In this document: positions 17,825 to 64,000 of the stretch, one piece after another | Layout: every line of letters starts with the position of its first letter | How positions within the stretch are numbered: position 1 is the first letter of the stretch | Assembly: GCA_023249305.1 (NCBI GenBank) | Contig: JAHFCU010000005.1 | Span: 1 to 64,000 of the forward strand | Reading direction: 5' to 3' | Length of the DNA: 64,000 nt | From: Gemmatimonadota bacterium | GTDB taxonomy: Bacteria > Gemmatimonadota > Gemmatimonadetes > Gemmatimonadales > Gemmatimonadaceae | Translations under genes and position numbers: made by a program | The notes under the pieces: model-generated | The model's input: only the letters and a program-made list of their open reading frames with translations | The model's database searches: none | What the model was told of the DNA's origin: nothing

Positions 17825-18841
17825 ATGCGGCACGAACTGCGGGATCTGACGATCATCGGCGCTGGCCCGACAGGGCTCTTCGCGCTCTTCTACGCTGGCA
17901 TGCGCGGCGCCACCGCGCAAATCGTGGACGCCCTCGACCAGCCCGGCGGGCAGCTCGCGGCGCTCTATCCGGAGAAGCTCATCTTTGACGTCGCTGGGTT
18001 CCCGGAAGTGCTCGCGAAAGACCTCGTGCACGCGCTCGAACGGCAGGCCGCGCGGTTCGGGCAGCCGATCCATCTCGGGCAGGTGGTGCAGGCGCTTGAT
18101 GCGGAGGACGGGCACTTGGTCCTGCGCACCGAGTCGGATGAGTTTCCCACGAAGACCATCCTAGTTGCGGCGGGGATCGGCGCGTTCTCGCCGCGGCGTC
18201 TGCCGCAGGCGTGCGCCGCGCCGTGGTACGGGAACGGGATCGAGGAGCATGTGCTCGACCCCACACGCGTCGCGGGGCGGCATGTGGTGATCATCGGCGG
18301 CGGCGACAGCGCCTTCGACTGGGCGCACCAGCTGCAGGGGCGCGCCGCGTCAGTGACGCTCGTGCACCGCAGCAACCGGTTCCGCGCACACCACGCGACC
18401 GTGGAGGCAGTGCAGGCCGACGTCGCGGCGGGCCGCACGGCGATGTATACGTTCCACGAACTGCACGAAGTCCACGCGGTGGACGGCCGAATCCACGAGC
18501 TCGAGCTGCGCGACGTGAAGGCAAAGACGACCGTACGCGTACGCTGCGACGTGGTGCTTCCGATGCTTGGCTTTGTAAGCGACCTCGGCGCGATCGCGCA
18601 CTGGGGGCTGACGCTCGTGAAGCACGAGATCGTCGTGAACTCGCACATGGAGACGGGGCGCGAGGGGATCTACGCGGCCGGGGACATCGCGACGTATCCC
18701 GGGAAACTCAAGCTGATCGCGACCGGATTCGGCGAGGCGGCGGTGGCGGTGAACGAGGCCGTGCACCACGTATATCCCGGAAAGAAGATTGACCCGGGGC
18801 ATTCGTCGAACATGGCGGTCTTTGGACAGAAAGACGATTGA
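17825..18841 (+). CDS. Ferredoxin-NADP+ reductase, thioredoxin-reductase-like (type 2)
   Basis: This 338-residue flavoprotein has an N-terminal FAD site, IIGAGPTGLFALFYAG, and an NADPH site, VVIIGGGDSAFDWA. The C-terminal FAD segment is GIYAAGDIATYPGKLKLI. No CxxC pair is present between the domains, which distinguishes this YumC-like FNR group from thioredoxin reductase. It would move electrons between NADPH and ferredoxin or flavodoxin. I chose ATG 17825; the open frame upstream overlaps the divergent kinase. The stop codon lies in the left arm of the repeat element that follows. Confidence 0.9.
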   Translation: MRHELRDLTIIGAGPTGLFALFYAGMRGATAQIVDALDQPGGQLAALYPEKLIFDVAGFPEVLAKDLVHALERQAARFGQPIHLGQVVQALDAEDGHLVLRTESDEFPTKTILVAAGIGAFSPRRLPQACAAPWYGNGIEEHVLDPTRVAGRHVVIIGGGDSAFDWAHQLQGRAASVTLVHRSNRFRAHHATVEAVQADVAAGRTAMYTFHELHEVHAVDGRIHELELRDVKAKTTVRVRCDVVLPMLGFVSDLGAIAHWGLTLVKHEIVVNSHMETGREGIYAAGDIATYPGKLKLIATGFGEAAVAVNEAVHHVYPGKKIDPGHSSNMAVFGQKDD

Positions 18842-19468
18842 GGATATGGATTCAGGATTGCGATTTAGGATTCAGATCCAGGATTGCGATGGACGATGGG
18901 GGCGCGTGTGAGCGCGCCTCGTCGCGCGTCGGTATGCGCGAGGCGCATCGCCTTGATGGCTGTCAACAGCTGGCGGCGGACCTGCACGAGCAGGTCTCGA
19001 TACTCGGCGCGCGGGGACCACGGCGTTTCGCCGAGCGCGTCAATCCACGCCAGCGCCTCGCGCACGGACCCGAGCGCGTAGGAGTAGAACCGGGCGCGAT
19101 CGCTGTTCGCGCCCCGAGAGTATCCCTCAGCGATGTTCGCGGCGACCGAACAGACTGCACGGACGAATTGGTGCGCGACATGGTGGGACACCCGCGAGCC
19201 CAATCGCGAGACATCGGTCGAGCATCGCGCACCGAGGTACGTGGCCATGCGGAACATCCGGGTGCGCCAGAGCGGGTCTCCGGAGTAAGCCTCCGGCGGG
19301 GTGGCCTCGAAGGCCTCAAAACCAAGCACGGGAAGCGTCATGCCCGACGCTACGCGCGCGACCCTCTCGCTCTGTCAGCGATTCAACGCGGCTGACGTCG
19401 TTCAATCGCGAATCGCAATCCGAAATCGTGATCTTATGTCCCGATCCTGAATCCAAGTCCTAATTCGG
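18835..19468. mobile_element. Repeat family copy B: inverted arms around a four-helix-bundle gene
   Basis: The left arm (about 18835-18918) and the right arm (about 19400-19468) are imperfect inverted copies; TGGATTCAGGAT at 18847-18858 is matched exactly by its inverse at 19444-19455. The left arm contains the same ordered blocks as the bare repeats at 203-340 and 63731-63893: a GATTGAGGAT edge, GATTCAGGATTGCGAT, then CGATGGGGGCGC, with a small GGCGCG/CGCGCC hairpin at 18901-18918. Between the arms is a minus-strand gene for a four-helix-bundle protein. Mobility is inferred; I see no target-site duplication or transposase. Confidence 0.6.
18865..19341 (-). CDS. Four-helix-bundle protein (23S rRNA IVS / Avd-like family)
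   Basis: The 158-residue product has the family pattern of intervening-sequence proteins (TIGR02436, PF05635-like): WRTRMFRMA in helix 1, then HHVAHQFVRAVCSVAANIAEGYSRG with the near-invariant NIAEG, RFYSYALGSVREALAWID, and a final helix LLVQVRRQLLTAIKAMRL. The family is known from insertions in 23S rRNA genes and from Avd accessory proteins of diversity-generating retroelements; a general biochemical role is not established. No rRNA or reverse transcriptase is nearby. The last 13 or so residues (from APIVHRN) and the stop are encoded by the left repeat arm. The gene runs against both neighbours, which suggests it arrived as a unit. Confidence 0.82.
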   Translation of the reverse strand: MTLPVLGFEAFEATPPEAYSGDPLWRTRMFRMATYLGARCSTDVSRLGSRVSHHVAHQFVRAVCSVAANIAEGYSRGANSDRARFYSYALGSVREALAWIDALGETPWSPRAEYRDLLVQVRRQLLTAIKAMRLAHTDARRGALTRAPIVHRNPGSES

Positions 19469-19471
19469 TTG

Positions 19472-19485
19472 TTGACAACTATAAG
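19472..19485 (+). promoter_or_regulatory. Promoter-like elements after the repeat, before tamA-like gene
   Basis: TTGACA (19472-19477) lies directly after the right repeat arm, and TATAAG (19480-19485) follows. They are too close to form one promoter. TTGACA could serve as -35 with AGAAAT near 19495, giving a transcript with almost no leader for the GTG at 19508. This is weak evidence that the tam genes are started from the repeat boundary. Confidence 0.25.
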
Positions 19486-19507
19486 AGCACGCACAGAAAT
19501 TTCTTCG

Positions 19508-21754
19508 GTGCGCCGCCTCATTCTCGCCCTCCTGTTCCCGGCTGCCCTGCACGCGCAGGACATCGTCTGCGACAAGGGCGACACCGAAGTGCTGCGGCTC
19601 GAGTTCACGGGCAACGCGTCGTTCCCGTCGGCAATGCTCGCGAACGGCATTGCCACGACGCCGTCGACGTGGGCACGGCGCTGGCTGCACCTCTTCGGCA
19701 CGCGCTATTGCCTGGATCCGGCGGAGCTGCCGCGCGACGTCCTGCGGCTCGTCGTCTTCTACCGCAACCACGGCTTCCTCGACGCGGCGGTGGACACCGT
19801 CGTGACGCACCCGAGCCCGGCGCAGGCGGCGATACGGTTTGCCATTACCGAGGGGCCGCCGACGCGCGTCCGCGCGCTGTGGATCACGGGGCTCGAGACG
19901 GTGCCGACGCGCGAAGCGATCGAGCGCTCGCTCCCGTTGCGCATCGGCGGCCCATTCGACCGCCTCGCGCTCGCCGCCGCGCGCGACACGCTCGCGCGGC
20001 GGCTGCGCAACAGCGGGTATCCCGACGCCGATGTGCTCGTGAACTACGAGACCGACGCGGAGCAGCGCACAGCCGCGGTGACCTTCGCGGCGATGCCGGG
20101 CGCGCGCTCGCGCATCGGCGCGGTCGCGGTGCAAGTGCGCCCCTACCGGGCGGCGCCGAAAGTGGACACCGCCGTCGTGCGCCGGCTCACCGGCCTCACG
20201 GGCGGCAGTTGGTACCGGCAGCAGGACCTGGAGCGCGCGAAGCGCACGCTCTACGGGACGCAGTTGTTCTCGCAGGTAGCGGTGGAGCCCGACACGGGCG
20301 TGGCGCGCGCCGATTCTGCGGTGCGCGTCGCAGTGCGCGTGGCGGAAGGGCCGATGCAGAGCGCGCGCGTGGGCGGCGGCTGGGGAACGCTCGACTGCTT
20401 CCGCGCGTACGGCGACTACTCGCACCTGAACGTCGGCGGGAGCGCGACGCGCGTGGACCTGCGAGCCCGCGTCTCGAAGATCGGCGTCGGACGGCCGCTC
20501 GACGGATTCGAACAGCTCTGCTCCAGCGACGCGCGCGCCGACGCATTTGGCGGCGACCTCAACTACTCCACCGGCGTGACGATCACGCCGCCGGTCTCGG
20601 CGCGCGCGGCGGTGCAGCCGTCGCTTACGCTGTTCAGCGAGCGTCGTTCGGAGTACAACGCCTACCTGCGCACGACGCCGATCGGCGGCGCGCTGTCGCT
20701 GGCGCGCAGCACGGGGCACCGGACGCAGAACGCGTCGTACACGCTCGAGTACGGCGATACCAGGTCCTCACCCGCGTTCCTGTGCGCGGTGTTCAACCTC
20801 TGCGCCGATGCCGATCAAGCGGCGCTGCTGCGCCGGCAGCGGCTCGCGGTGCTCGGCGTGTCGTTCACCGACGAGAAGACCGACAACCCGACGAGTCCGC
20901 GCCGTGGCACCGTCCTGCGTGGCGAAGTGCGCCACGCGTCGCAGGAGGTGGGTTCGGACAGCCGGCTGCAGTTCACGCGGTTCACCCTTGACGGCGCCGC
21001 CTACCTGCCACTGGGCACGGACGTCGTGCTCGCGGCGCGGCTGCGTGTCGGTGCGGTGCTCGGGCCGATCTCGCTCGGCTCGGCGGGCGACGCATATGTA
21101 CCCGTGCAGGAGCGGCTCTACGCCGGCGGCGCGACGACGGTGCGCGGCTTCCGCCAGAACGAACTCGGACCGGTAGTCTACAACACGGCCGCGTACGACA
21201 CCGTGCGCGCGGACGGCACACACGGCGGCGACCCCGCCGATCCGACGCAAGTGGTCTACTTCCGCGCCAATCCGGCGACGGCGGGCGGACGCACGATTCC
21301 GACAGGCGGGAACGCGATGCTCGTTGCGAATCTCGAGGCGCGTGTGCGAAGCCCGGTGCTCGCCGATGTATTGCAGCTCGCGTTCTTCGCCGACGCGGGA
21401 CGCGTGTGGAACAGCGGCACTGCGACCTCGCTCAACCTTGGCGCGGTGCAGTGGACGCCCGGCGTCGGTGCGCGTGTGCGCACGCTTGTCGGGCTCATTC
21501 GGGTGGACATCGGCTACAACCCGTATCAGCGTGCGTCGGGTGCGGCGTACTTCGACACGCCGATCGCGGTGGGCGGGCAGCTCTTCTGTGTGAGCCCGTC
21601 GAACATGCTGCGCGTGACAAAGGCCGCGGCGGGCTCGGCGACGGGCCAACTGCAGCAGGCCACGGGCGGCTGCGCGTCGGACTTCACGCCGCCGCGCGAG
21701 CGGAGCGTACTGAAGCGGCTCGCGTTCCAGTTCTCCATCGGCCAGGCGTTCTAG
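19508..21754 (+). CDS. Omp85-family outer-membrane protein, TamA/BamA-like
   Basis: This 748-residue protein has a signal peptide ending at LHAQ. POTRA-like repeats follow: the pattern beta-alpha-alpha-beta can be seen around VLRLEFTGNASFP, AIRFAITEGPPTRVRALWITG and VTFAAMPGARSRIGAVAVQ. A C-terminal 16-strand barrel (bacterial surface antigen D15) occupies about residues 290-748, with RLYAGGATTVRGFRQNELG as the conserved RGF motif of strand loop L6. It ends in a Phe, as outer-membrane barrels do. The start is a GTG at 19508. A single base separates it from the downstream tamB gene, so I read it as the outer-membrane half of a TAM-like pair. Confidence 0.9.
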   Translation: MRRLILALLFPAALHAQDIVCDKGDTEVLRLEFTGNASFPSAMLANGIATTPSTWARRWLHLFGTRYCLDPAELPRDVLRLVVFYRNHGFLDAAVDTVVTHPSPAQAAIRFAITEGPPTRVRALWITGLETVPTREAIERSLPLRIGGPFDRLALAAARDTLARRLRNSGYPDADVLVNYETDAEQRTAAVTFAAMPGARSRIGAVAVQVRPYRAAPKVDTAVVRRLTGLTGGSWYRQQDLERAKRTLYGTQLFSQVAVEPDTGVARADSAVRVAVRVAEGPMQSARVGGGWGTLDCFRAYGDYSHLNVGGSATRVDLRARVSKIGVGRPLDGFEQLCSSDARADAFGGDLNYSTGVTITPPVSARAAVQPSLTLFSERRSEYNAYLRTTPIGGALSLARSTGHRTQNASYTLEYGDTRSSPAFLCAVFNLCADADQAALLRRQRLAVLGVSFTDEKTDNPTSPRRGTVLRGEVRHASQEVGSDSRLQFTRFTLDGAAYLPLGTDVVLAARLRVGAVLGPISLGSAGDAYVPVQERLYAGGATTVRGFRQNELGPVVYNTAAYDTVRADGTHGGDPADPTQVVYFRANPATAGGRTIPTGGNAMLVANLEARVRSPVLADVLQLAFFADAGRVWNSGTATSLNLGAVQWTPGVGARVRTLVGLIRVDIGYNPYQRASGAAYFDTPIAVGGQLFCVSPSNMLRVTKAAAGSATGQLQQATGGCASDFTPPRERSVLKRLAFQFSIGQAF

Positions 21755-26315: not shown

Positions 26316-27217
26316 GCGGGCGCGTGGGGCTGGTGGTGAATCCTGCGTCGCGCGACGGCGCGCATGCGGAAGCGCCGGTCGTGCGCGCCCTCGCCGCGGC
26401 GGGGATTCGGCCCTCGATTGAACGCACGCGAGAGGCAGGCGACGGCGTGCGCGCCGCGCGCGAGCTCGCGCCGTCGCACGACTGCCTGCTCGTGCTCGGT
26501 GGTGACGGCACGGTCATGGAAGCCGCCACGGGGCTGGCCGACGCCGGTTCGACCGCACCCCTCGGTATTCTCCCAGGCGGCACGGGGAACCAGCTCGCGC
26601 GCGCGCTGTCGGTGCCGATGTCACCGACGCGTGCCGTGGCGCGCCTGCTGGCTGGCGAAGCGCGCGCCATTGACTGCGGCCTCCTGAACGGACGGCGACG
26701 CGTGGGCATCGGGGTTGGTCTCGGGCTCGACGCGGCGATGATCGCCGGCGCGCGCGGTCCGCTCAAACGGATATTGGGCGTCGGATCGTACGTCGTCAGC
26801 GCCTTGAGGGTGGCCGCGCGTCCGCGGCGCTTTGCGGTGCGCGCCGAGGTCGATGGACGCGTCATCGAACGCGAATGTTCGGTGGCGATGGCGCTCAACC
26901 TCGGACACATGTTCAACGGCATGCTCGAGGGAGCACCGGGCACGTCGCTCGTGGACGGGCGACTCGATCTCGCGCTCCTCGACGCGCGACACCTCGCCGA
27001 CTTCCTCGACTTCTCGCTCACGGAGTCGCTGCTGCGGCGGCGTCGCCCGGACCCGCGCTGGACGTTTGCCAGCGGCCGCCAAATCGTCCTCGAGACGCAG
27101 GACGCGACGGTGCCGGCGCAGGTGGACGGAGACCTCATCCCGGCCGAGCGCTTTGAGCTGATTGTGCTGCCGAATGCGCTCCATCTCCTCGTTCCCGCAG
27201 GCGGCCGGATCATATAG
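26303..27217 (+). CDS. Diacylglycerol/sphingosine kinase-like lipid kinase (YegS/DgkB)
   Basis: This protein of about 304 residues has the DAGK catalytic domain: GLVVNPASRDG near the N-terminus, the nucleotide site LVLGGDGTVMEAA and the GILPGGTGNQLARAL segment. The C-terminal domain shows NLGHMFNGMLEGAP and VDGRLDLALLD. It would phosphorylate a lipid such as diacylglycerol. The start is a GTG at 26303, inside the last 13 bases of tamB, or at 26324; either way it is translationally linked to tamB. A lipid kinase after tamAB fits a role in envelope lipid handling, which is inference. Confidence 0.88.
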   Translation: MAVLGGRVGLVVNPASRDGAHAEAPVVRALAAAGIRPSIERTREAGDGVRAARELAPSHDCLLVLGGDGTVMEAATGLADAGSTAPLGILPGGTGNQLARALSVPMSPTRAVARLLAGEARAIDCGLLNGRRRVGIGVGLGLDAAMIAGARGPLKRILGVGSYVVSALRVAARPRRFAVRAEVDGRVIERECSVAMALNLGHMFNGMLEGAPGTSLVDGRLDLALLDARHLADFLDFSLTESLLRRRRPDPRWTFASGRQIVLETQDATVPAQVDGDLIPAERFELIVLPNALHLLVPAGGRII

Positions 27218-27376
27218 AAGCGCCTGGCGACGCGCTCCGCTGGGCGAGCATGCGCCGTCGAAACCGTCTGGGACACGCCGGCCACCCTCCCCCTATCCAG
27301 CGCCAGCCAATTGCTGTATGGATTATGGACAGTGCAAGTGGACTGTAAGTTCTCGTGTCACCGTCCAAAACCCATC

Positions 27377-61525: not shown

Positions 61526-63727
61526 ATGCACGGCCGCAAGCTCGTCACCACTGGAACCGCTGCGACGCTCGCCATCCTCGCCCTCATCGGCGGGTGCGGC
61601 GAGGCGACAACGGGTCCTACCTCGGTGCAGCCACAGGACTTCGCCGCCGCCCTGAAGCTCATCTCAGGCAACCAGCAAAACGGCTCGGTCGGCGCTCCGC
61701 TTTCAGAACTGCTCTCGGTCAAGGTCGTTGATGCCGGCGGCCAGCCCGTCACAGGCGCCACGGTGTTGTGGCAGGTGCGCGGCGGCGGTGGGGCAATCAA
61801 CCCGGCCGCATCCACTTCGTCGAGTACGGGCCTCACGACCGTCGTGTGGACGCTCGGCACGACGCTCGGTGCAAACAAGGCGGTTGCGATCTTGCAGGGG
61901 AATTACGTGCTCGACAGCGCCGTGTTTACCGCGACCGCAGGCGTCGGTCCGGCGTCGCGGTTCACGCTCACATCGGGCAATGCACAGACGGGCCGAGTGG
62001 CATCGCAGCTCGCGCAGGCGCTGACCATCAACGTGAAAGACCAGTACGGGTACGCGGTGTCCGGCAAGAAGGTGACGTGGGCGACCGCGCTGTTCAGCGG
62101 CACGGTAACGCCAGTCACCACCGACACCACAGATGCATCCGGCAACGCGAGCGCCAACTGGCTGCTCGGCGCTTCGGCGGGCATCACGCAGACGGCGACG
62201 GCGACGATCACCGGGCTCGCTCCGATTTCGTTCACCGCGACGGCCACGCCCGACACCTCACGTGTGATGACGCTCGTGGCGGGAAACGCCCAGACGGCGG
62301 CGGCTGGTGCGACGCTCGGCACCTCGCTGACGGTGAGCGTCGCTGACCGCTTCGGCAACGTGATTGCGAACGACACGGTTCTGTTCAACGACTCACTCAC
62401 CGCCGGTAGCACCGTGAGCCCCGCGACGGTCTACACCGACGCAGCCGGCCGGGCCAGCTCGACGTGGACGCTCGGCAATCGGCTGGGCGCGCAAGTGGCG
62501 CGTGCGCGGGTGCGTCCCACGGTCAAGGCGACGTTCAACGCGACAGCCACCGCGCAGTTTGCGCAGGTCTACGCGGGGAACTACTTCACGTGTGGCGTCA
62601 CGGTCGGCGATCGCGCGTTCTGCTGGGGCTTCGGCGAAGACGGCCAGCGCGGCATCGTCGCCGCGAAGTCGGCGAACGCACCGGGCGCCGGCGTGACGAC
62701 GACCGACACGCTCGCCGGGCCGTTCCCGACCTGGCGACAAATCGGTGCCGGCTCGAGCTATGTGTGCGGCATCAGCATCGCGCGGCAGCTGTACTGCTGG
62801 GGACGCCTGTCCAGCGCGACGCAGGTGAACATGCCGACGCTCAAGGTGTTTTCGGGCAACGTCCTTTCGTTCGTGAGTGTCAGCACAGCGGAAACGCACA
62901 GTTGCGTGCTGACCACAGACGGGCAGCTCGGCTGCACGGGATCGAACGCGCGCGGGCAGCTCGGCGATGGCTCGTACGCCGACCAAATGAGCGACTACGC
63001 GAATGTCACCACGGTTGCGCCGAATGCGCGACTGCCATGGTCTGCTATGGCGGTGGGCGGATCGCACACGTGCGCCTTCCCGCGCTTCAGTCCGACGGAC
63101 TCGGTCAATACGCTGCGCCCGTGGTGCTGGGGCGCGAACGGATCTGGGCAGCTTGGCAACCGCACCGTGACCATTGATTCGACGATTCCGCGGGGCGTGG
63201 ACATGACCGGCCTGACGCAGGTGTGGGACACCACAAGCTTGGTTGCCGGCGCCGCGCACACATGCGCGCTCGACATCTCGAGGGCAGCATACTGCTGGGG
63301 CTCCAACGGCTACGGCCAACTGGGCGGCGGCTCGACACTGGCGCGTGATTCCGTGCCGATGGCCGTGGCGGGCGGATACGCGTTCGCAAAGCTCTATGCC
63401 GGCGAGTACCACACGTGCGGCATCACGACGGCTGGGGCCGCCTACTGCTGGGGCCGGAACACCTCGGGCCAGCTCGGCGACGGCACGACGACGAACCAAT
63501 CAGCCCCCGTGGCCGTCAACAGCGGCCTGACGTGGCGCTCGCTCGCGCTGGGCGAGCTGCACTCGTGCGGCGTGGCTTCGCCGACAGGACAGGGCAGCGG
63601 CACGCAGGCGGGCGCCGGCGTAGTGTATTGCTGGGGCGACAACGAGTATGGGCAGCTCGGCATCGGACTGTCTGGGACCAACGGCGCGCCGCTACTCTCA
63701 CCGCAGAAGGTGACAGGACAACCGTAA
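61526..63727 (+). CDS. RCC1-repeat lipoprotein with Ig-like (Big_1) domains
   Basis: This 733-residue lipoprotein has signal lipobox LIGGC (Cys24). Three Ig-like beta-sandwich domains follow (about 35-345), each with a phrase like GNQQNGSVGAPLSELLSVKV and VKDQYGYAVSGKKVTW. A seven-bladed RCC1-type propeller follows from about 350 to 730, with repeats such as AGAAHTCALDISRAAYCWGSNGYGQLGGG. Each blade carries a paired HTC...YCWG, suggesting disulfide-stabilised blades. GGAG stands before ATG 61526. A surface binding or adhesion role is likely. Confidence 0.88.
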   Translation: MHGRKLVTTGTAATLAILALIGGCGEATTGPTSVQPQDFAAALKLISGNQQNGSVGAPLSELLSVKVVDAGGQPVTGATVLWQVRGGGGAINPAASTSSSTGLTTVVWTLGTTLGANKAVAILQGNYVLDSAVFTATAGVGPASRFTLTSGNAQTGRVASQLAQALTINVKDQYGYAVSGKKVTWATALFSGTVTPVTTDTTDASGNASANWLLGASAGITQTATATITGLAPISFTATATPDTSRVMTLVAGNAQTAAAGATLGTSLTVSVADRFGNVIANDTVLFNDSLTAGSTVSPATVYTDAAGRASSTWTLGNRLGAQVARARVRPTVKATFNATATAQFAQVYAGNYFTCGVTVGDRAFCWGFGEDGQRGIVAAKSANAPGAGVTTTDTLAGPFPTWRQIGAGSSYVCGISIARQLYCWGRLSSATQVNMPTLKVFSGNVLSFVSVSTAETHSCVLTTDGQLGCTGSNARGQLGDGSYADQMSDYANVTTVAPNARLPWSAMAVGGSHTCAFPRFSPTDSVNTLRPWCWGANGSGQLGNRTVTIDSTIPRGVDMTGLTQVWDTTSLVAGAAHTCALDISRAAYCWGSNGYGQLGGGSTLARDSVPMAVAGGYAFAKLYAGEYHTCGITTAGAAYCWGRNTSGQLGDGTTTNQSAPVAVNSGLTWRSLALGELHSCGVASPTGQGSGTQAGAGVVYCWGDNEYGQLGIGLSGTNGAPLLSPQKVTGQP

Positions 63728-63730
63728 CTA

Positions 63731-63893
63731 CGATTGAGGATTTGGACTCAGGATTGCGATTCAGGATTCGGATTCAAGACTGCGATGTACGATGGGGCGC
63801 CTGGCTCAGCCGGGCGCCCCATTCGCTTTGCATCGCTAATCGCAATCCGAAGTCACAATCCTCAATCGCAATCCTGAGTCCAAGTCCTGAATC
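63731..63893. repeat. Hairpin repeat, family copy C (bidirectional terminator)
   Basis: This sits between the stop codons of the RCC1 lipoprotein and convergent fmt. The outer arm is 20 bp perfect (63742-63761 with 63864-63883, TTGGACTCAGGATTGCGATT), and the inner stem is 10 bp perfect (63792-63801 with 63813-63822, ATGGGGCGCC). The left edge CGATTGAGGAT is shared with copy B at 18835. The fmt stop codon lies at the right edge. It is well placed to end both transcripts. Confidence 0.85.
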
Positions 63894-64000
63894 AGATCCA
63901 CACATCGCCGACTGCCATCCCACGTCCTTTCATCCACTCCCGCGCCGTCATGCGTCGCTTCCCGGCGGGATGCACTTCCTTGATCGCCACGGCGCCTGAT
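63892..64000 (-). CDS. fmt: Methionyl-tRNA formyltransferase, C-terminal fragment
   Basis: Only 35 codons and a TGA stop lie in the window. The frame reads AIKEVHPAGKRRMTAREWMKG, like the C-terminal domain end of Fmt (xxEVQPAGKRRMSAxEFLRG). Fmt formylates the initiator methionyl-tRNA. Linkage with rsmB, from which it is separated by the RCC1-type gene, supports this. The stop codon is in the repeat edge. Confidence 0.75.
   Translation of the reverse strand, partial: SGAVAIKEVHPAGKRRMTAREWMKGRGMAVGDVWI

Follow-up and report, generated by a model that had tools for sequence, protein, structure and literature searches.

Here we report that a gene for a four-helix-bundle protein of the S23/IVP family, lying between two protein genes of a bacterial draft genome and enclosed by inverted repeat arms, probably belongs to a mobile element of the IVS type that lives outside rRNA, encodes no transposase, inserts at gene ends and has bare derivatives. 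An IVS-type element living outside rRNA is undescribed within the literature searched, where none of the titles and abstract openings covered (subscription journals lying mostly outside the search) joins non-rRNA S23 genes with repeat arms. A wider reading, which we hold tentatively and stop a little short of calling probable, is that there is a bacteria-wide mobile class whose sole protein, a non-catalytic S23/IVP bundle, recognises its own arms and, together with a host polymerase, drives both itself and hundreds of gene-less heptamer hairpins; the rRNA IVS and the GGGAATC heptamers of Xanthomonas, and perhaps other heptamer families, would then be members. Linking S23/IVP proteins with dispersed heptamers gives both of them a testable role, that of a minimal mobile unit without a transposase of its own, and provides a natural system for following arm sequence and protein side by side.

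The window, by which we mean the whole 64,000-nucleotide stretch of DNA that was analysed, comprises bases 1-64000 of contig C48 of a 2.5 Mb draft genome. Its relevant features are these:

17834-18841 (start approximate), plus strand: upstream neighbour, a pyridine-nucleotide oxidoreductase gene.
18835-18897, plus strand: left inverted arm, 63 nt, with a 13-nt tandem unit of the CGATTCAGGATTG type.
18865-19341, minus strand: S23/IVP four-helix-bundle gene, 158 aa (PF05635, TIGR02436, AlphaFold, Foldseek).
18900-18918, strand not applicable: GC-rich inner stem-loop adjoining the left arm, from sequence.
19405-19467, minus strand: right inverted arm, 63 nt, which pairs with the left arm by covariation.
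19469-21754, plus strand: downstream neighbour, an Omp85 family protein gene with a conserved TTGACAAC box at its start.
201-340 (ends by eye): bare hairpin with a similar 13-nt-type unit, beginning directly after a stop codon.
63727-63898: bare hairpin with a 13-nt-type unit and a GC-rich inner stem, just past a stop codon.

The initial annotation had described the gene as enclosed by the arms of a dispersed hairpin repeat, and this description stands. TGGATTCAGGAT occurs exactly at 18847-18858 on the plus strand and again, inverted, at 19444-19455 on the minus strand, and with at most two mismatches it has 6 matches in the window against 1.41 expected, a count reached by 0 of 100 shuffles; CGATGGGGGCGC was seen by eye only beside the left arm. 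Over their full length the arms are 71% complementary, with a degenerate 13-nt unit and a spacing of 13 in the match list, and the same kind of blocks recurs, as had been noticed, in the two bare hairpins at about 201-340 and at 63727-63898. The gene runs on the minus strand against plus-strand neighbours on either side, and its last residues and TAA stop codon lie inside the left arm, both in agreement with the earlier description; the TGA stop of the oxidoreductase gene (18839-18841) lies inside the same arm. Folding the window's arm-gene-arm unit as RNA gives a minimum-free-energy structure of -313.4 kcal/mol (z -6.6 over 20 shuffles) in which the arms pair, and the bare hairpin at 63727-63898 also folds stably (-109.7 kcal/mol, z -14.6). 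The strict arm score of the window copy is 13, below the cut-off of 16 used in the survey described below, which places its arms among the decayed ones, and their pairing rests on the 71% match together with covariation among orthologues. A chance palindrome was considered and rejected, since 0 of 100 shuffles reach the match count of the window and arms are tied to S23 loci and not to control loci.

The protein has PF05635 (23S_rRNA_IVP) as its sole domain at E <= 0.001 (1.4e-13, 51.4 bits against a curated cut-off of 33.8), with no transposase domain at that threshold, and it matches TIGR02436, named 'four helix bundle protein', at 6.6e-16. Its AlphaFold model (pLDDT 87.7) has four long helices. 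By Foldseek and profile comparison it belongs to the fold of the S23 family, the closest solved structures being Xcc0516 (2gsc; profile match 2.5e-34), BT_0352 of the S23 family (2rld) and, weakly, Avd (4dwl; Foldseek probability 0.99, E 0.26), beside a further weak match to the DGR ribonucleoprotein 8ub7 (0.94, E 0.78). The four-helix identity read from the letters alone was recovered by both family models, and the fold match to Avd is weak. A toroidal pentamer is stated for the Xanthomonas S23 protein, and the function of S23/IVP proteins is given as unsettled, in the portion of the literature drawn on here (PMC4990558). The genes are under purifying selection, with a median dN/dS of 0.15-0.23 over five S23 groups of the genus at synonymous differences of about 0.6, where the value of 0.23 belongs to the third genus group, which included two non-orthologous loci (L006 and L108).

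The copy in the window is an old one, passed on vertically. The oxidoreductase is present in all 11 genomes of the genus, the S23 element stands behind it in 10 of them, and the TTGACAAC box is present in all 11 relatives aligned or read. Genome G003 (87% complete) has no S23 gene at the site, where 205 nt with a GC-rich hairpin within separate the stop codon from the promoter box. Most S23 elements of the genus are found at orthologous sites, and the window element and at least four others remain there. Recent mobility of the window copy was accordingly rejected, and because this copy occupies one site in 10 of 11 species, the mobility argued for below is that of the class and not of the window copy.

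At orthologous sites the arms pair and change together. At three of five genus sites, a species' own arms complement each other significantly better than arms taken across species: the window site (p 1e-4, and 2e-4 on repeat, with n=10), a second (p 5e-5, n=11) and a third (p 0.009, from its 7 true orthologues). The other two gave no significant result (p 0.09 and 0.31, n=5 each). RNAalifold, applied to ten orthologues of the window site, pairs the arms independently: over 48 arm pairs, 90.0% of cells are paired against at most 55.8% in slid controls, a percentage that is favoured by deriving the structure from the tested alignment itself; 15 of the 48 pairs have changed on both sides, against 8.8 when shuffled, and the covariation of 0.265, against 0.145 shuffled, is reached by 0 of 500 shuffles. 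The arm stem at the window site is backed by covariation across ten species; the small hairpin at 18900-18918 is also present in this consensus fold, with several pairs broken. At one genus site the unit varies by species (GGATGGC, AGACGGG, AGACGGT, GGTAGAT, GGCAGAT and others) and the two arms of a species mostly agree, no arms being found there in one species (L105); whole tandem units, such as GGATGGC, AGACGGT and GGCAGAT at one site, change jointly in both arms. This pattern suits copying over point-by-point compensation, and could be had neutrally if template switching between inverted arms during replication homogenised them with no role for the protein. We think such a neutral account possible, though on balance unlikely, for it leaves unexplained both the occurrence of the arms around S23 genes and the co-occurrence of repeat arrays with the S23 gene, and neutral template switching can in any case act jointly with the mobile element that we favour.

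Two further observations concern elements of the genus. At the window site, two species (L248 in G007 and L246 in G009) have expanded arms with new 13-nt variants, which suggests recent repeat turnover. At one orthologous site, the flanks of L118 (G005) correspond to those of L098, L102, L115 and L122 with the two sides of the S23 gene exchanged, a pattern that looks like an inversion of the interior between its arms or an insertion in the opposite orientation.

Arms around S23 genes extend far beyond the genus. The window genome itself has four PF05635 matches, of which three have inverted arms of different units (about 13, 11 and 7 nt, by eye) and the fourth, in contig C43, has no arms; PF05635 is found in 37 of 41 close genomes and in 82 of 150 genomes of a phylum sample. 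The arm score measured how well the 400-nt stretches on either side of the gene complement each other (match 1, mismatch -2, gap -3/-2). The cut-off of at least 16 was reached by 58 of the 78 named and 40 of the 49 phylum loci, 98 of 127 in all, and missed by 29; the corresponding figures are 1 of 26 for loci of the single control family (DinB) and 3.3% for mispaired flanks. These survey loci are best-scoring matches and no random sample, three named loci repeat phylum loci, and 4 of 53 phylum, 2 of 80 named and 4 of 30 control loci were left out for short flanks or missing coordinates. The titles of the named loci give Acidobacteria, Chloroflexi, Proteobacteria, Planctomycetes, Bacteroidota, Firmicutes and others, so that homologues with arms occur both in the phylum sample and in other phyla, and the arms are no chance feature of one gene. 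Tandem arrays stand on both flanks of 36 of the 78 named and 23 of the 49 phylum loci (59 of 127) and of 0 of the 26 controls, with a dominant period of 7 and with 8, 9, 11, 13 and 14 among others.

Arms at the same cut-off were found at 28 of 40 further loci of the same genus, in 13 of 15 plasmid S23 loci (two near-duplicate pairs included), and in 28 of 37 loci from the order of a Dyella genome and four further genomes, where 5 of 42 were dropped as short and some repeat named loci. Pooled with known duplicates removed, 127 of 162 elements are armed, and the arms of 118 of these 127 are G-rich reading inward. In 59 of 110 elements the S23 stop codon is situated inside the arm or no more than 14 nt from the arm's inner edge; in 42 it comes before this and in 9 beyond. 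That unit lengths not divisible by 3 serve to close all reading frames was tried as an idea and found weak, all three frames being closed in only 22 and 27 of 102 cases; the mean number of frames closed by stops is 1.24 in inward arms, against 1.08 shuffled, and 1.24 in outward arms, against 0.59. A search with one query protein gave no S23 match in phages. No arms were found at L296 of Nostoc HK-01, nor in one orthologous group of the genus (L100, L106, L112, L114 and L132), whose PF05635 matches lie in long open frames of 201-604 aa and which is possibly a domesticated or fused form. Two S23 loci, L053 and L059, have long inverted matches (about 78 and 147 nt) without obvious tandem repetition.

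Gene-less units are spread through the window's genome. With at most three mismatches GGATTCAGGATTNNGATT matches this genome 127 times and its reversed pattern 9 times, and with at most two it has 49 matches, at 32 places; other arms elsewhere in the genome stand directly after stop codons, and several gene-less units were seen as hairpins, in keeping with the bare derivatives suggested by the initial annotation. Dispersed units co-occur with the S23 gene in two samples. In the genus, 13-mer units are scarcest in G003, the gene-less genome, which has 2 where the other ten have 14-88, a comparison that involves one such genome and a reversed-pattern control of 0-17. A count of AGGNNNN arrays (30 of 32 genomes) was discarded, its reversed-pattern control being unclean because GGA recurs in AGGATTC units. 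In contig C40 of genome G000, at about 27169-27290 (L004), an arm of 13-nt units lies close to an array of TCTGTTGTTC, the kind of unit that flanks another S23 gene of the same genome, and the two together are possibly a mosaic bare hairpin.

The case for mobility comes from present and absent alleles on cyanobacterial plasmids. The element of Trichormus variabilis ATCC 29413 is missing, by 428-431 nt, from six plasmids of relatives at 97% identity, and with three empty plasmids aligned this site is clean almost to the base, the only such site, the other 'empty' alleles differing by a few to about 50 nt. Elements of Calothrix NIES-22, Aulosira NIES-50 and Nostoc ATCC 53789 have element-free alleles at about 90-92%; overall, flank identity to the empty alleles is 97% in Trichormus and about 90-95% elsewhere, and 90-98% on cyanobacterial plasmids. 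The Nostoc C052 element is absent in Nostoc C057, where about 50 nt of other sequence stands, and Nostoc ATCC 53789 has by eye an apparent bare hairpin at this site; one cyanobacterial plasmid site thus has full, bare-hairpin (by eye) and element-free alleles. Beyond this, three unrelated contexts hold elements that are 78-83% identical to one another, those of Trichormus, Aulosira and Nostoc ATCC 53789, and the identity ends at the arm tips. At the compared sites the variable unit contains the S23 gene alone and no transposase, and elements are about 420-710 nt in the cases measured. By eye, the start of the insertion coincides with the upstream stop codon, or is a few bases away from it, in four of five cases; in the fifth, in Aulosira, the insertion shortens the upstream gene. 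The candidate target duplications at two of the five sites (GTAAT and TTCTA) are only suggestive. Within the genus, the S23 group with 11-nt units has one shared site in seven distinct loci and two other places (L006 and L108), whose flanks match neither the shared site nor each other.

Since present and absent alleles exist and one element stands at three unrelated sites, we conclude that the class is mobile. The initial annotation had treated mobility as inference, and for the class the plasmid alleles now bear it out, empty sites being found in relatives both on these plasmids and in G003, the one genome without the gene among the 11 of the genus; together with arms tied to S23 genes and with the dispersed units, they also favour its proposal of an autonomous element made of a protein, structured ends and bare derivatives. 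One might instead suppose a non-mobile autoregulated gene, its stem controlling S23 expression and its sites differing through deletions, and the purifying selection, the covariation, the vertical inheritance in the genus and the existence of a partly deleted remnant all agree with that; the presence of one element at three unrelated sites, all of which also have element-free alleles, and of units at 32 places of the window's genome nevertheless renders it very improbable. The remnant (L302, on plasmid pC052_E of Nostoc sp. C052) is an internally deleted element with one arm and part of the gene left, at a site where relatives carry the full element or none. On plasmid pNsp_c of Nostoc sp. ATCC 53789, a different S23 element (L311) with AAAGGGG-type arms lies near the site that on pNsp_a of the same strain holds another S23 element.

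Dispersed heptamer repeats provide a second setting in which arm units and S23 genes meet. In the order of the Dyella genome, taken to be Xanthomonadales, PF05635 is found in 74 of 200 genomes, and five S23 loci (L341, L343, L344, L351 and L352) have arms of the GGGAATC or GGGATTC type, with three of their proteins matching Xcc0516 at 2e-40 to 1e-33. Arrays of GGGAWTC, defined as three units with one mismatch allowed, occur in 12 of 20 S23-positive and 0 of 20 S23-negative genomes of this one order (Fisher 4.5e-5, which ignores kinship), where the positives were chosen, 5 of them for GGGAWTC-type arms, and the negatives were the first 20 listed; without those five the figures are 7 of 15 against 0 of 20 (p 0.001). 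The five GGGAWTC-armed genomes have 75-188 array matches each. In the other seven array-positive genomes, three of which have only 3-4 matches, the fetched S23 locus has a different arm unit, so that unit and gene are not matched one to one. The GGGAATC heptamers described from two Xanthomonas genomes form 70 and 75 inverted pairs, placed beside stop codons or overlapping them (PMC4692102), and are the same type of repeat as the arms around S23 genes in the order of the Dyella genome. For dispersed heptamer repeats that study gives the source as not known and reports no association with mobile elements, and its text makes no mention of S23, 23S or four helix (PMC4692102); the elements described here are a possible source for the heptamer repeats of some bacteria. 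The GGGGA(C/T)T heptamers of Nostoc form few inverted pairs, and the plasmids carry no such repeats (PMC4692102), so we do not make the link in their case.

Against this background, the hairpins might also be no more than terminators or mRNA stabilisers, ordinary structures of a 3' end that repeat slippage has enlarged, with S23 genes inside some of them by chance, as their start right after stop codons, their GC-rich inner stems and the vertical inheritance of the window element would allow. The association of arms with S23 genes, but not with DinB genes, in many phyla, the gain and loss of arm-gene-arm as a single unit, and GGGAWTC arrays seen only in S23-positive genomes already disfavour this explanation, which we regard as improbable.

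How a transposase-less element would spread can be sketched in outline. The unit consists of arm, S23 gene and arm and nothing else, the arms being inverted and often tandem repeats, G-rich inward and able to pair into a long stem, and it inserts at or beside the end of a gene; gene-less units are dispersed over the genome. As RNA, such a stem with the gene in its loop would be a natural substrate of RNase III. By analogy with the 23S rRNA IVS, an RNase III-like enzyme may cut the paired stem, and an insert close to the end of a gene could be removed from the transcript in this way, which would make insertions in transcripts tolerable. The oligomeric four-helix protein probably binds the arms and may help to copy or maintain them. 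The unit encodes no copying enzyme, which counts against a mobile element, and since neither polymerase nor transposase is encoded, copying would have to use a host enzyme, perhaps a reverse transcriptase acting in trans, perhaps replication with template switching, where switching at the fork would also account for the joint change of entire units in the two arms. The same S23 protein would serve the bare hairpins as its non-autonomous copies, a view that the co-occurrence data support and do not prove.

Among known systems, REP/REPIN-RAYT has a gene-carrying master copy and many bare palindromic copies, RAYT being a Y1-type transposase. The likeness lies in one gene-carrying copy plus many bare copies, but the gene here encodes a four-helix bundle in which no transposase domain was found. 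Classical IS/MITE families likewise have a transposase in the full-length copy, whereas the compared units here hold the S23 gene only. Avd of DGRs has a related four-helix fold, with a weak Foldseek match; beside the annotated plasmid elements no reverse transcriptase is named. The fold matches to Avd and to 8ub7, weak as they are, and the stable hairpin RNA would suit a system in which an Avd-like protein passes the hairpin RNA to a reverse transcriptase whose gene lies elsewhere, the element being a retroelement parasite. The features annotated within 2-2.5 kb of 14 plasmid elements name no reverse transcriptase, in a gene table that is incomplete and has many entries marked 'hypothetical', and we rate such a system as rather doubtful.

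The IVS of 23S rRNA is among the known systems closest to the element proposed here. In Coxiella, the IVS is described as a 428-nt hairpin with an S23-family ORF, terminal inverted repeats and a 28-bp stem, with tandem heptamers (GACAGAT) in strain-variable number upstream of the ORF; it is excised by RNase III, and older work proposed that IVS are mobile (PMC4990558). The window unit is similar in having terminal inverted repeats that form a stem around an S23 ORF. It is not in 23S rRNA, no Rfam match at the gathering threshold being found in the 64 kb window, and the elements here differ further in standing between protein genes, in having arm units that vary from element to element and in having dispersed gene-less relatives.

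Genes of the same family as the window gene have also been recorded in CRISPR loci, where 18 23S_rRNA_IVP genes were found in cas loci and treated as a CRISPR-associated function (PMC3936711). The arms found here suggest the insertion of an element; S23 genes inside cas and conjugation operons would then be explained as insertions. In two type I-D loci, L289 (plasmid pANA02 of Anabaena sp. 90) and L295 (plasmid pPg_01 of Pseudanabaena galeata), an S23 gene lies between cas6 and cas4 with heptamer-type inverted repeats in the flanks, the best inverted match being up to 343 nt from the gene match.
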